DNA of 64,000 nt from Olivibacter domesticus (GTDB lineage Bacteria > Bacteroidota > Bacteroidia > Sphingobacteriales > Sphingobacteriaceae), in NCBI RefSeq assembly GCF_900109575.1, contig NZ_FOAF01000003.1:1-64000 (forward strand), written 5' to 3'. The position numbers were made by a program, and so were the translations under genes. The notes beneath the pieces were generated by a model. The model had not been told where the DNA came from, did not search any database, and saw only the letters and a program-made list of their open reading frames with translations. Of the stretch, positions 20,809 through 26,091 are shown in pieces (position 1 is the first letter of the stretch; the number at the start of each line of letters is the position of its first letter).

Positions 20809-20840
20809 TTGATAAATTAAAAATAAACACTTTACTTTAC
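20809..20840 (+). promoter_or_regulatory. Candidate promoter of the thr leader
   Basis: TTG at 20809-20811 and TACTTTAC at 20833-20840 (partial match to TAnnTTTG) are spaced by 21 bases. Transcription would start around 20845, about 14 bases before the leader peptide ATG. The box match is imperfect. The 20540-20808 stretch holds no gene I can support. Confidence 0.4.
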
Positions 20841-20858
20841 TACGAATTACAAAAAACG

Positions 20859-20927
20859 ATGGCAACAAGTTCAACCATTACAACATCCACAATTATTACC
20901 ACCGGGATATATCACCGAGGGAAGTAA
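20859..20927 (+). CDS. thrL: Threonine operon leader peptide
   Basis: A 22-codon frame starting at ATG 20859 reads MATSSTITTSTIITTGIYHR and ends GK-stop. It has seven Thr and four Ile codons, including the cluster TTSTIITT. This is the composition of attenuator leader peptides of thr operons, where threonine and isoleucine shortage stalls the ribosome. It lies 30 bases before a strong terminator and directly upstream of thrA. The last codons (917-924) also form the antiterminator arm. No Shine-Dalgarno sequence is present; A-rich sequence precedes the ATG, as usual in this phylum. Confidence 0.9.
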   Translation: MATSSTITTSTIITTGIYHRGK

Positions 20928-20991
20928 TCTTTATGTTGTAAGGTTCGCAAACATACAAGGGCGCTTCTCTCAAAGAGAAAGCGCCCTTTTT
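20917..20991 (+). promoter_or_regulatory. thr operon transcription attenuator (antiterminator and terminator)
   Basis: Two mutually exclusive structures are visible. The terminator pairs AAGGGCGCTTCTCT (20957-20970) with AGAGAAAGCGCCCTT (20974-20988, one bulged A) and ends in five T (20987-20991). The antiterminator pairs GAGGGAAGT (20917-20925), at the end of the leader peptide, with GCTTCTCTC (20963-20971), using G-U pairs at two places and destroying the terminator. A 6-bp hairpin TATGTT/AACATA (20932-20955) fits in its loop. A ribosome stalled at the ACC codons around 20898-20903 leaves 20917-20925 free; one at the stop codon covers it. Confidence 0.85.
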
Positions 20992-21033
20992 AATTAATGA
21001 TATTTTAATAGCAATTAAACCATAATAAATTAA

Positions 21034-23481
21034 ATGAAGGTACTAAAGTTTGGGGGCACTTCTGTCGGGTCAGTAGAAAGCATCAACGGATTATTAGAAA
21101 TTTTAAAACAGCAATATGCACAGGGCGAAAAGCCGATAGTAGTGCTGTCGGCCATGAGCGGTGTTACAAACCTGTTAACACAGATGGCAGAAGATGCAGA
21201 AAAAGGTATTAGCTTTAATGCAGCGCTTAAAGAATTAGAGTCGAAACATTTTGCCGTTGTAAAACAATTAATTCAAATTAAGAATCAGAATCCTGTTTTC
21301 ACCCAGCTCAAGATCTTTCTGAATGAGCTTGAAGATCTACTACAAGGTGTCCTTAATTTGAGGGAATTAAGTTTACAGAGTAAAGACCTTGTTGTGAGTT
21401 ATGGTGAGCGTTGTTCAGCCTTTTTGATATCGAAGATTGCCGAACAATATTTTCCGGAGAGCTTATTTGTTGAAGCAAGCTTACTCATTAAAACCGACAG
21501 TAATTTCGGCAATGCCCGTGTAGACCTTCAAAAGAGTGAATTACTAATTCGTCAATTTATACAAGAGCACAATCATCATTTTTTATTTGTTACCGGGTTC
21601 ATTGCTTCTAATGATAGTGGGCGCGTTACAACACTCGGGCGGGGCGGTAGCGATTATACCGCAGCGATTTTTGGGGCCGCCTTACAGGCAGAAGCCATAG
21701 AGATTTGGACCGATGTAGACGGAATGCTTACGGCAGATCCGCGCATGGTAAAAAAAGCATTTCCGCTTCCAATTCTTTCTTATACAGAAGCCATGGAGTT
21801 GTCTTATTTCGGTGCAAAAGTTATTTACCCGCCGACCATGATTCCTGCTTTCATGAAAAAAGTTCCCATTATTATTAAAAACACCTTTAACCCAAGTTTC
21901 CCAGGAACAGTTATACAGTACGACAGTGGAAAAACGAAATTTCCAATAAAAGGCATCTCTTCTATAAATGCCATAAGCGTCATAAACCTTAGTGGCAGTG
22001 GTATGATTGGTAAAGCTGGATTTAGTGGTCGATTATTTTCCTTACTAGCCCGTAAACAGATCAATGTGGTTCTTATAACACAATCCTCTTCGGAGCATAG
22101 TATCACTTTTGCCGTGCATCCAGCAGATGCCTTACGAGCAAAACTTCTTATCGAAACAGAGTTTGAATTAGAACTTTTGGCAAAAAAACTAGAAGCGCCA
22201 GTTATTGAAGAAGAGCTATCTGTATTAGCTATTGTAGGCGAAAACATGAAGCAAACACCGGGTATGTCGGGTAAGCTATTTCATGCACTTGGTCGTAATG
22301 GAATAAATGTAAGAGCGATCGCACAAGGATCCTCGGAGTACAATATTTCGGTTATTATTAGTCATGAAGATCTATCAAAGGCCTTAAATGCCGTACACGA
22401 TGCCTTTTTTACAGCGTTAAAGAAAACACTTCATGTATTCAGTTTAGGTACTGGAAACATCGGCTCTACTCTTTTTCGCCAGCTATTGGAACAACAAGAT
22501 TTTCTACGCGATCATAATGATATTCAAATAAAAATAATAGGCATTAGCAATTCCCGTCAAATGCTCTTTAATGGAGAGGGTATAACACTTGACAGTTGGC
22601 AAGAAGAATTAGCGAATAAAGGCGAACCAGCCAATCTAGAACAGTTTATCAGCAGGATGCAAAAACTCAATCTTCCTAACTGTGTGTTTGTAGATAATAC
22701 TGCCAGCACGGAACCAACAAAACATTATTTGAAAATTTTTGAATCCAACATCTCTGTGGTTACCTGTAATAAAATAGCCAATTCGTCAAGCTATGAACAA
22801 TATAAACGCTTACGCGATACAGCACGAAAACATGGTGTTGATTTTTATTATGAAACAAACGTAGGTGCTGGACTTCCAATTGTTCGCACCTTAAAAGATT
22901 TAATGACCAGTGGCGATCGAATTATTCGTATAGAAGCCATCCTATCGGGCACTATTTCTTACATCTTTAATAATTTCAATGGGGATACCTCCTTCTATGA
23001 TGTTGTAAAATCTGCACAAGCGTTAGGCTATACAGAACCAGACCCCCGAGATGATCTGCGCGGAACGGATTTTATGCGCAAAATGCTCATCTTGGCGCGT
23101 GATGGGGGGCATACTATAGAAGCGGAAGAAGTAAAACTAGGAGCAATCTTGCCCGAAGCTTGCTTAAGTGCACCTTCTGTTGAAGAATTTTATCAGGAAC
23201 TAAAAAATGCAGATAGTTATTTCAATAATCTTAAGGAAAAAGCGAAACTAGAAAACAAAGCGATTCGATATATTGGTAAAATGGAAGACGGCCAGGTTTC
23301 CATTGCCTTGGAGCTCGTGGGAGAAGAACATCCTTTTTATAATCTTTCGGGAAGCGATAATATTATCTCCTTTACCACCGAAAGATATAAGGATCGTCCA
23401 TTAGTTGTAAAAGGCCCAGGCGCCGGTAGCGAGGTTACCGCAGGGGGAGTATTTGCTGATTTAGTAAATGTAGGCGCGTAG
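21034..23481 (+). CDS. thrA: Bifunctional aspartokinase / homoserine dehydrogenase I
   Basis: This 815-aa fusion catalyses the first and third steps of the threonine/methionine pathway. Residues 1-290 are aspartokinase (start MKVLKFGGTSVGS, then TLGRGGSDYTAAIFGAAL). Residues 310-460 are two ACT-like regulatory domains (GKAGFSGRLFSLLARKQINV and GMSGKLFHALGRNGINVRAI), where threonine feedback is expected. From about 465 comes homoserine dehydrogenase, with LGTGNIGSTL and the GAGLPIV plus GTISYIFNNF signatures. Length equals E. coli ThrA (820). It is the first structural gene after the attenuator; thrB follows about 117 bases downstream. Confidence 0.98.
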   Translation: MKVLKFGGTSVGSVESINGLLEILKQQYAQGEKPIVVLSAMSGVTNLLTQMAEDAEKGISFNAALKELESKHFAVVKQLIQIKNQNPVFTQLKIFLNELEDLLQGVLNLRELSLQSKDLVVSYGERCSAFLISKIAEQYFPESLFVEASLLIKTDSNFGNARVDLQKSELLIRQFIQEHNHHFLFVTGFIASNDSGRVTTLGRGGSDYTAAIFGAALQAEAIEIWTDVDGMLTADPRMVKKAFPLPILSYTEAMELSYFGAKVIYPPTMIPAFMKKVPIIIKNTFNPSFPGTVIQYDSGKTKFPIKGISSINAISVINLSGSGMIGKAGFSGRLFSLLARKQINVVLITQSSSEHSITFAVHPADALRAKLLIETEFELELLAKKLEAPVIEEELSVLAIVGENMKQTPGMSGKLFHALGRNGINVRAIAQGSSEYNISVIISHEDLSKALNAVHDAFFTALKKTLHVFSLGTGNIGSTLFRQLLEQQDFLRDHNDIQIKIIGISNSRQMLFNGEGITLDSWQEELANKGEPANLEQFISRMQKLNLPNCVFVDNTASTEPTKHYLKIFESNISVVTCNKIANSSSYEQYKRLRDTARKHGVDFYYETNVGAGLPIVRTLKDLMTSGDRIIRIEAILSGTISYIFNNFNGDTSFYDVVKSAQALGYTEPDPRDDLRGTDFMRKMLILARDGGHTIEAEEVKLGAILPEACLSAPSVEEFYQELKNADSYFNNLKEKAKLENKAIRYIGKMEDGQVSIALELVGEEHPFYNLSGSDNIISFTTERYKDRPLVVKGPGAGSEVTAGGVFADLVNVGA

Positions 23482-23598
23482 TTAGTTATTCGTTGTTGGT
23501 TATTCGTTATTAGAAAGAATAAGATATGAGTAGCAAGATAATTTTGTAAATATGTTCTTGCATGCATCTTGATACGCAATAAGGTTAATACTAAAAGA

Positions 23599-24576
23599 AT
23601 GGAATTAGAAACAGAAAAAGAGCCGGCGGAGAAAGCCGGAAAAGAACGAGAGCAGGTACGCGTATTTGCCCCTGCTACAGCTGCCAATTTAGTATGCGGC
23701 TTTGACATTTTGGGTCTGGCCCTGGAACAACCGGGAGATGAAGTTATGATGAAACGTTCGGATAAGTCGGGAGTGAGATTATTAAAAATAACGGGAGATG
23801 ATGGAAGACTACCCTTGGACCCTGCCAAAAATACCGTGAGTGCTTGTGTCCAAATGTTATTAAAACACTTGGGTAGGGAAGATATTGGTGTTGAAATAGC
23901 ATTACATAAGCAGATGCCTATTGGAAGCGGGCTCGGTTCAAGCGCTGCTAGCACAGTAGCCGGCTTGTATGCTATTAATTTGCTGTTGGGAGAACCCTTA
24001 AGTAAGCATGAACTGCTACCATTTGCTATGAGGGGCGAAGAATTAGCCTGTGGGCATGGGCATGCAGACAATGTAGCACCATCCTTATTTGGAGGCATTA
24101 CACTTATAAAAAGTTATGAGCCGCTAGATGTTATCCAACTGCCTATACCAAAAGATTTGTACTGTTCAGTTGTATTTCCGCATGTTGATGTTCCCACCCG
24201 TGCAGCTAGACAAATGATTCGATCGAAAATTGATCTGAAGGATGCTGTTATACAATGGGGTAATATTGCTGGCTTGGTAAGTGGTTTTTTTATGAATGAC
24301 CACGCCTTGATCGGTCGGAGCATGAAAGATGTCTTGATAGAGCCAACACGCGCCATATTAATACCTGAGTTTTATGAGATGAGAGAACAAGCAATGGTTT
24401 CCGGCGCGCTTGGATTTGGCATTTCAGGATCGGGCCCTTCCGTTTTTGCTTTCGCCTCGAGTAAGCAAACAGCATTGAACATTACCAACAATATTGTACA
24501 ACATTTACAATCCAAAGGAATTGATAGCAACGGCTATGTGTCGGCAATTAACGAACAGGGGCCACGTGAACTTTAG
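23599..24576 (+). CDS. thrB: Homoserine kinase
   Basis: A GHMP-family kinase that phosphorylates homoserine. It has the N-terminal FAPATAANLVCGFDILGLAL strand-turn, the ATP-binding GHMP motif PIGSGLGSSAAS (about residue 108), GHADNVAPSLFGG and the C-terminal GFGISGSGPSVFAF. I chose ATG at 23599 (325 aa); a 10-codon longer reading would start at TTG 23569. Its first 25 residues are charged and extend beyond the usual family start. It sits between thrA and thrC, and the gap after thrA carries GTTATT-type repeat words. Confidence 0.97.
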   Translation: MELETEKEPAEKAGKEREQVRVFAPATAANLVCGFDILGLALEQPGDEVMMKRSDKSGVRLLKITGDDGRLPLDPAKNTVSACVQMLLKHLGREDIGVEIALHKQMPIGSGLGSSAASTVAGLYAINLLLGEPLSKHELLPFAMRGEELACGHGHADNVAPSLFGGITLIKSYEPLDVIQLPIPKDLYCSVVFPHVDVPTRAARQMIRSKIDLKDAVIQWGNIAGLVSGFFMNDHALIGRSMKDVLIEPTRAILIPEFYEMREQAMVSGALGFGISGSGPSVFAFASSKQTALNITNNIVQHLQSKGIDSNGYVSAINEQGPREL

Positions 24577-24723: not shown

Positions 24724-24768
24724 ACTCATAACTCATAACTCATAACTCATAACTCATAACTCATAACT
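24724..24768 (+). repeat. 7-bp tandem repeat (ACTCATA x 6.4) in the thrC leader
   Basis: Six perfect copies of ACTCATA plus three bases run from 24724 to 24768 and end six bases before the thrC ATG. An imperfect complement of this unit (GTTGCGAGTT and similar words) lies at 24578-24604 after thrB, so the two can fold against each other. Copy number may vary between strains and change thrC leader length. Confidence 0.9.
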
Positions 24769-24774
24769 ATTATA

Positions 24775-26091
24775 ATGAAACTATACAGTACCAATAACAA
24801 AAATTTAAACGTCTCCTTTAAAGAAGCAGTATTCAATAGTTTGCCGGCCGACAAAGGTCTTTATATGCCTTCGATTATTCCGAAGATGCCTGCAGATTTC
24901 ATAAATAATCTTGACAAATATACCTTGCCGGAGATTGCCTTTGAAGTGGCAAATCATCTCATTGGAGAAGATATCCCTTCCGCCGACTTAAAAATGATTG
25001 TTGAAGAAGCCATTAACTTTGATGCGCCGGTGGTTTCATTAAATGATAGAACAGCCGTATTAGAACTCTTTCACGGCCCTTCTTTGGCTTTTAAAGATTT
25101 TGGTGCCCGATTCATGAGTCGCGTAATGGCCTATTTCTCCAAAAATGAGCAGCACCCGAAGGTCTTAGACGTATTGGTCGCAACATCCGGTGATACGGGG
25201 GGAGCAGTGGCCCTCGGCTTTCTAGGTGTTGAAGGAACCCGTGTTACAATCCTTTATCCGAAGGGAAAGGTAAGCCCGATACAAGAGCAACAACTTACGC
25301 GAAACGGGCAGAATATTCGGGCAATTGAAATAGAGGGCACTTTTGATGACTGCCAAGCATTGGTAAAAGAAGCATTTAACGATCAGGAGCTAAACAAGTA
25401 TTTACGTCTTACATCGGCCAATTCCATCAATATTGCTCGCCTTATACCCCAGACATTTTACTACTTTAACGCTTATGCCCAACTATTAAGAAAAGGAATA
25501 AAAGATGTTGTATTTGCTGTTCCTAGCGGAAATTTCGGCAATATTGGAGCAGGTTTGCTTGCCTATAAAATGGGTTTACCGATTAAACAATTTTTAGCGG
25601 CCACGAATGTTAATGATACGGTTCCACGTTTCTTGAATTCAGGCACATACGAACCCAAACAATCGATACAGACACTATCAAATGCTATGGATGTAGGTAA
25701 TCCAAGCAATTGGGTACGCATATTGGATCTCTTTGGAAACGATAGCAACCTATTGAAAGAAATAGTCACGGCCTATTCATACACCGATGAAGACACACGA
25801 ATAGGTATAGATACCCTGTATAATAAATATCACTATATCGCTTGCCCACACACGGCAATTGCCTACCTGGCGGCTAAAGCCTACATGGTCGAAAATCCTG
25901 GTCAATATACCACTGTCTTTTTATCAACTGCCCATCCATGTAAGTTTCCGGAGGTTTTCTCCGCAGAGAAGATAGCCGCAATAAGCATTCCGGAACAAGT
26001 AAAAGAACTGGAAAATAAACCCAGTCACAAAGAGTCCTTAGGTACTGCCTATCCAGCGTTCAAAACCTGGCTGTTAAGTAATAAGTTATAA
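24775..26091 (+). CDS. thrC: Threonine synthase
   Basis: A PLP enzyme converting O-phosphohomoserine to threonine. The 438-aa protein has the N-terminal domain (SFKEAVFNSLPADKGLYMP), the Schiff-base lysine in HGPSLAFKDFGARF (Lys107), the phosphate-binding VATSGDTGGAVA, and FAVPSGNFGNIGAG. Length is typical of the type 1 enzyme. It is the third gene of the thr operon, but the 198-base gap after thrB with its tandem repeat suggests some independent control. It converges on metG, with a hairpin between them. Confidence 0.98.
   Translation: MKLYSTNNKNLNVSFKEAVFNSLPADKGLYMPSIIPKMPADFINNLDKYTLPEIAFEVANHLIGEDIPSADLKMIVEEAINFDAPVVSLNDRTAVLELFHGPSLAFKDFGARFMSRVMAYFSKNEQHPKVLDVLVATSGDTGGAVALGFLGVEGTRVTILYPKGKVSPIQEQQLTRNGQNIRAIEIEGTFDDCQALVKEAFNDQELNKYLRLTSANSINIARLIPQTFYYFNAYAQLLRKGIKDVVFAVPSGNFGNIGAGLLAYKMGLPIKQFLAATNVNDTVPRFLNSGTYEPKQSIQTLSNAMDVGNPSNWVRILDLFGNDSNLLKEIVTAYSYTDEDTRIGIDTLYNKYHYIACPHTAIAYLAAKAYMVENPGQYTTVFLSTAHPCKFPEVFSAEKIAAISIPEQVKELENKPSHKESLGTAYPAFKTWLLSNKL

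Follow-up and report, generated by a model that had tools for sequence, protein, structure and literature searches.

A probable threonine leader attenuator ahead of thrABC in Sphingobacteriaceae, and similar leader peptides across Bacteroidia

How is transcription of the threonine biosynthesis genes adjusted to amino acid supply in a phylum that has its own promoters and makes little use of Shine-Dalgarno (SD) sequences? The question is raised by a short threonine (Thr)- and isoleucine (Ile)-rich open reading frame (ORF) that precedes thrA in a 64,000-nucleotide stretch of Olivibacter domesticus DNA (contig NZ_FOAF01000003.1, positions 1 to 64,000; hereafter the window). Attenuation by leader peptides is textbook knowledge, and comparison with related genomes argues that this leader very probably controls the thrABC operon as a ribosome-mediated transcription attenuator, sensing charged transfer RNA (tRNA)-Thr and probably also tRNA-Ile.

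A preliminary description of the site, made from the window alone, had named a 22-codon leader with seven Thr and four Ile codons followed by a terminator with five T, and had proposed that the leader end (20917-20925) pairs with the left arm of the terminator (20963-20971). All of these parts are present where they had been placed, and the two segments (GAGGGAAGT and GCTTCTCTC) form an uninterrupted helix of nine pairs that includes two G-U pairs, hereafter the 2:3 or antiterminator helix (Table 1). Region 2 takes in the final codons of the leader and reaches the first base of its stop codon; the terminator begins 29 bases past that codon, with its five T at 20986-20990. A protector (1:2) helix, in which 20873-20886 pairs with 20933-20945 and 20892-20897 with 20923-20928, forms in the minimum free energy (MFE) structure of the leader. 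The leader region folds more stably than its shuffled versions (z = -5.9; 0 of 200 shuffles as good). Among the 843 small ORFs of 15 to 40 amino acids on both strands of the window, none but the leader reaches 30% Thr, and none but the leader reaches 50% Thr plus Ile. The locus has the parts of an attenuator: a leader with codons of the pathway, whose translation is predicted, an intrinsic terminator before thrA, an antiterminator that excludes the terminator, a protector helix, and a suitable ribosome geometry.

Table 1. Features of the thr leader and operon in the window (positions are those of the window)
Feature	Position	Strand	Evidence
Probable Bacteroidota-type promoter: TTG (20809-20811), 21-nucleotide spacer, TACTTTAC (20833-20840)	20809..20840	+	motif conservation
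thr leader ORF MATSSTITTSTIITTGIYHRGK, 22 codons, 7 Thr + 4 Ile	20859..20927	+	sequence; matching Thr/Ile-rich leaders in 103/110 family loci
Region 1: Thr/Ile codons of the early and middle leader, forming the 5' side of the 1:2 (protector) helix	20873..20897	+	MFE fold; RNAduplex -14.9 kcal/mol
Region 2: antiterminator 5' arm GAGGGAAGT	20917..20925	+	nine consecutive pairs with 20963-20971
3' side of 1:2 helix, AGTAAT + ATGTTGTAAGGTT, spans stop codon	20923..20945	+	fold; covaries with partner
Intrinsic terminator AAGGGCGCTTCTCTCAAAGAGAAAGCGCCCTTTTT, 32-nucleotide stem-loop + T run, left arm holds region 3	20957..20990	+	sequence; family covariation
thrA, bifunctional aspartate kinase / homoserine dehydrogenase I	21034..23481	+	NCBIfam NF006959, 1030 bits (cut-off 726)
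thrB, homoserine kinase	23569..24576	+	TIGR00191, 232 bits; NF002288, 378 bits
thrC, threonine synthase	24775..26091	+	TIGR00260, 288 bits

Conservation of the layout was analyzed in the regions upstream of thrA of 110 members of the Sphingobacteriaceae. The leader/terminator arrangement was found in 103 of them, including all five Olivibacter genomes; 101 were recognized automatically and two (L017 and L030) by eye. The exceptions belong to three genera: g8 and g9, in which no thr leader of this terminator type was recognized upstream of thrA, and g5, which carries a second type of Thr leader described below. Genus averages range from 3 to 9 Thr and from 1 to 8 Ile per leader. Two clades, g18 and the Daejeonella-like g21, keep the Thr codons but have few for Ile, and isoleucine sensing is therefore probably lineage-dependent. 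The Thr codons are not rare ones, being mostly ACC and ACA, which matches usage in thrABC. The antiterminator element GGAGGAAG, counted as exact cases by leader frame, is read 20 times as (R)RK, 20 times as GGR and five times as EEG, and in several g18 leaders it begins 3' of the stop codon. Since the element occurs in all three frames, and even after the stop codon in g18, it is the RNA that is conserved at the leader end and not the peptide.

The sequence of the element changes together with its partner. The antiterminator arms are GGAGGAAG/CTTCCTCC in most genera and GAGGGAAG/CTTCTCTC in Olivibacter, CGGGGC or CGGGAC with GTCCCG, and also TGGGGG/CCCCCA, in the Pedobacter-like g14, and GGAAGGT/GCCTTCC in g18. 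Column-based counts of antiterminator pairs were dropped: MAFFT lines the leaders up end to end, which leaves the element one base off register between clades. Arms were instead compared by alignment-free swapping between genera, using one sequence per genus (17 genera) and 400 trials. Native 2:3 duplexes averaged -16.9 kcal/mol versus -15.0 kcal/mol for swapped ones and were better in 399 of the 400 trials, swaps being as good in one. The corresponding values for the 1:2 duplexes were -11.1 versus -9.4 kcal/mol, with native arms better in 398 trials and swaps as good in two. The 3' side of the 1:2 helix likewise covaries with its partner in other genera, for example AACACCAT with ATGGTGT, and the terminator shows two-sided (compensatory) changes at seven of nine pairs in the family alignment. 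The comparison with relatives that the preliminary description had suggested as a check thus yielded both conserved Thr codons and covarying antiterminator/terminator pairing across the family.

From these parts, their conservation and their covariation, we infer ribosome stalling, a kinetic choice between structures, read-through and a response to Thr and Ile. When both amino acids are plentiful, a ribosome would run to the stop codon and cover region 2, the terminator would form, and RNA polymerase would halt near 20990. With charged tRNA-Thr in short supply, it would stall at Thr codons, such as ACC ACC at 20898-20903, breaking the 1:2 helix and freeing region 2, which would capture region 3 ahead of synthesis of the terminator's right arm, so that thrABC would be transcribed. 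Without translation, the 1:2 helix would keep region 2 and termination would be the default.

To examine this scheme, nascent RNA extending to region 3 was folded with a ribosome footprint either at the stop codon or on the last of the Thr codons that clear the element. For the window's leader, the probability of the 2:3 helix was 0.99 with the ribosome stalled, 0.00 with it at the stop codon and 0.01 without a ribosome; the means over 101 leaders were 0.90, 0.01 and 0.59, respectively. Two properties were not built into the test: each of the 101 leaders has a usable Thr codon 11 to 36 nucleotides 5' of the paired stretch, and in each the stop codon is placed so that a terminating ribosome blocks 2:3 pairing. 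The claimed geometry, in which stalling frees the element and a ribosome at the stop codon covers it, accordingly fits the spacing throughout the family. In full-length MFE structures with the ribosome footprint blocked, the terminator always won, so that antitermination was not visible there. The terminator wins on the full RNA in known attenuators too. Antitermination must therefore be kinetic, chosen during transcription.

Several points weigh against attenuation of the whole operon as described. The swap-test counts (399 and 398 of 400) are inflated by relatedness, with shared ancestry not fully corrected, and are not probabilities. The folding test is partly circular, as the stall codon was picked to make the footprint stop short of the element. 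Ribosome-free RNA had a 2:3 probability above 0.5 in 64 of the 101 leaders; the 1:2 helix is thus not always the winner, and default termination may not hold in every species. Attenuation itself is read from sequence comparison and folding, with termination and the threonine response as predictions. Finally, thrB and thrC are placed on the thrA transcript on account of their spacers: these are about 120 bases (thrA-thrB) and about 200 bases (thrB-thrC) long, and no + strand terminator was found in either, which suggests that thrABC is a single transcript.

Other explanations of the same elements were weighed against this evidence. Terminator-like hairpins are common, and a single sequence by itself would be compatible with a chance ORF, so a plain terminator that damps transcription next to a chance or unrelated small ORF had to be considered. 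We regard it as very improbable, given that the Thr-rich leader holds its position in 103 of the 110 relatives, that the element at its end tracks the terminator arm, and that no other small ORF of the window is rich in Thr. It is just as improbable that GGAGGAAG acts as an SD sequence, either for a following small ATG GTG/TTG TAA frame or through ribosome pausing, with translation and not transcription being regulated. Its GGAGG is SD-like and many genera have an ATG about 10 nucleotides downstream; however, the elements of g14, Olivibacter and g18 leave the SD consensus in step with the terminator arm, and the downstream ATG is missing from many Sphingobacterium leaders. SD sequences are, moreover, seldom used by Bacteroidota. 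A riboswitch or T-box, binding a metabolite or a tRNA and containing an ORF by chance, would also place a structured 5' region ahead of a biosynthesis operon, but the conserved parts are codons and simple alternative helices, and no aptamer-like core is conserved. No riboswitch or T-box reached the Rfam gathering score in the window, where only a tRNA did, and no credible weaker match lay in the 500-base region. We consider this explanation the least probable of all, and a ribosome-mediated attenuator remains the reading that we adopt.

The genome containing the window is 6.8 Mb long and belongs to the Sphingobacteriaceae, class Bacteroidia; its closest named relatives are Olivibacter species (ThrA identity of 85-87%). 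The leader lies between frr (- strand) and thrA-thrB-thrC (+ strand), and metG (- strand) comes after thrC. The true start of thrB is likely the ATG at 23599. The thrB-thrC spacer holds a short tandem repeat of ACTCATA units (24729-24770). From the probable promoter, the transcript would start near 20846. The motif TTG-N21-TACTTTAC is common to all five Olivibacter genomes and also occurs in several other genera, 20 to 30 nucleotides 5' of the leader start. The full promoter score of 9 was obtained in 18 of 100 family upstream regions versus 2 of 500 shuffled ones, and the window's own site scores 7. In a generic scan for promoters and terminators, sigma-70 sites were no more frequent than expected by chance, and the scan's terminator rule missed the thr terminator.

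Most Bacteroidia genomes outside the family that have thrA are without a terminator-type thr leader. Pontibacter and Botryobacter (Hymenobacteraceae; L159, L180, and L183) have ThrA proteins of 65-68% identity that nest within the Sphingobacteriaceae: in a tree of 29 ThrA sequences, the 17-row clade that includes them has support of 96/91. Their Thr/Ile leader carries the same GGGGAAGG and CCTTCC arms. This nesting and these shared arms suggest that the terminator-type leader was carried along with the gene, a probable horizontal transfer of thrA together with its attenuator. At a locus of another family (L187, genome G184; ThrA 62% identical), we observed a Thr/Ile/methionine (Met) leader, MTTIMSIMGDVQSWR, with the terminator CCTTCCTCC, which possibly adds methionine control.

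Ahead of thrA, many other Bacteroidia families have the second type of Thr leader, in which a Thr or Thr/Ile run ends the peptide and the stop codon lies inside a hairpin. The stems vary by compensation (ACCCC-TTA-GGGGT, ACAACCC-GTTAA-GGGTTGT, and ACGGGG-TAA-CCCGT) and are often followed by CATATNA, with no T-tailed terminator evident. A mechanical search listed this type at 27 of 84 loci, of which a few are doubtful. The type occurs, among others, at L196, L207, L214, L218, L221, L231, L240, and L250, and, within the Sphingobacteriaceae, at L109-L112 of genus g5. No Rfam family covers it, and RNAalifold gave no consensus structure for these (type B) leaders.

In the genome containing the window, a covariance model built from the thr leaders of the family gave its top score to the window's site (85.5 bits, against 28.5 bits for the next match), and across 296 Bacteroidia genomes the matches of at least 80 bits were exclusively thr leaders of the family. 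Many weak matches will be chance, and the best of the weaker ones that we examined were leaders of other pathways, with terminators and with codons suiting the downstream gene. These included histidine (His) runs ahead of hisG (L270, L272, L273, L278, and L284), Ile runs ahead of ilvA (L282) and close to a gene for the small subunit of acetolactate synthase, leaders that contain Ile ahead of ilvE (L276, L277, and L283) and leuA (L281), and FFFNYFYF ahead of pheA, which encodes prephenate dehydratase (L275). Others were NNYYYYH ahead of phenylalanine 4-monooxygenase (phenylalanine hydroxylase), NNNFN ahead of asnA, and MMNSMMCC ahead of sulfite reductase.

The last three associations were checked in further genomes. 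Defining a cluster as at least four of one residue in seven, 9 of 20 phenylalanine hydroxylase loci with a terminator have a tyrosine (Tyr) cluster directly ahead of it, and none of the same 20 has a cluster of asparagine (Asn), Thr, His, tryptophan or phenylalanine (Phe). Tyr-rich leaders with terminators precede this gene, whose enzyme product is tyrosine, at L310, L312, L314, L316, L317, L320, and L332-L336. For asnA (aspartate-ammonia ligase), three of eight loci have an Asn cluster, and Asn-rich leaders with terminators occur at L292, L304, and L305, and also at L279. Leaders rich in cysteine (Cys) and Met recur at sulfite reductase, for example MTMCCCCYMRTRK, MMCCMMCCCPRGMEMSC, and MNKMMCCCCMSAERWRW, and MMCCCCKTQ within the Sphingobacteriaceae; many have a terminator (L340-L345, L350, L351, L354, L355, L365, L366, L368, L371, and L373). 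They are probably an attenuator of sulfite reduction in Bacteroidia. The genome containing the window has no Cys/Met leader at sulfite reductase. Its hisG is preceded, at a distance of about 100 nucleotides, by a His-rich leader, MIKVFAHHIHFHHRPCGDM (L267, C2 near 147111-147653, minus strand), in which an obvious T-tailed terminator was not seen, and no convincing branched-chain leader stands in front of the two ilvD copies examined.

That leaders for Thr, His, Ile, Phe/Tyr, Tyr, Asn, and Cys/Met share one design suggests that ribosome stalling regulates much of the amino acid and sulfur metabolism of Bacteroidia. We consider it reasonably probable, with less confidence than for the thr leader itself, that leader-peptide transcription attenuation is a general amino acid-sensing platform of this class. 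The thr device would be one case, alongside Tyr with phenylalanine 4-monooxygenase, Asn with asnA, and Cys plus Met with sulfite reductase, and Thr control would be built in two ways, with a terminator or with the stop codon in a hairpin loop. To our knowledge, none of these Tyr, Asn or mixed Cys/Met leader specificities has been reported for those genes. This breadth is more interesting than the known mechanism, and extant transcriptome and ribosome-profiling data could be used immediately to test stalling-based control in Bacteroidia.

A 2004 survey by Vitreschak et al. (FEMS Microbiol Lett 234:357) reportedly lists candidate amino acid attenuators in some Bacteroidetes/Chlorobi. Our literature searches, whose coverage did not reach that survey, found no description of a thr attenuator in Bacteroidota or of an Asn leader ahead of asnA. 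The Bacteroid-trp RNA motif (Rfam RF01692) is listed as a cis-regulatory RNA of Bacteroidetes (PMC2864571), and it has no match in the window or near the thr leader. A transcriptome study of Flavobacterium psychrophilum reported "strong clues" for leader-peptide attenuation ahead of amino acid operons (PMC9723704). That proposal shares with ours the phylum, a short peptide 5' of amino acid operons and a structured 5' transcript; it concerns another family, and the elements mentioned in its main text are those of pheA and hisG and not of thrA.

The closest known counterpart is the E. coli thr attenuator (thrL; Rfam RF00506, Thr_leader). The Rfam model gave the window's leader 17.9 bits, below the cut-off of 55, a short stretch of Thr/Ile codons and a hairpin holding too little signal to favor either common descent or the separate origin that the preliminary description had raised as a possibility. 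It exceeded the cut-off in none of 61 family genomes, and its weak matches were mostly stray hairpins that scored equally high. In some relatives the thrA leader was the top genome-wide match (about 46 bits), whereas a site away from thrA reached 51 bits in another genome. Both systems have a Thr/Ile-rich leader, an intrinsic terminator ahead of thrA, alternative pairing and the thrABC gene order. Unlike in E. coli thrL, the antiterminator arm in the window is located at the final codons and stop of the leader, the 1:2 helix extends across the stop codon, and the promoter is of the Bacteroidota type. The earlier suggestion of E. coli-like logic in this phylum is supported by the comparison, while the surprise is less than had been stated, attenuation having already been proposed in Flavobacterium (PMC9723704). 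With an arm that is kept in every frame and covaries with the terminator, the thr leaders provide a clear instance, on comparative grounds, of classical attenuation outside the Proteobacteria, and the predicted device of the Sphingobacteriaceae adds to a known mechanism a case with good support.

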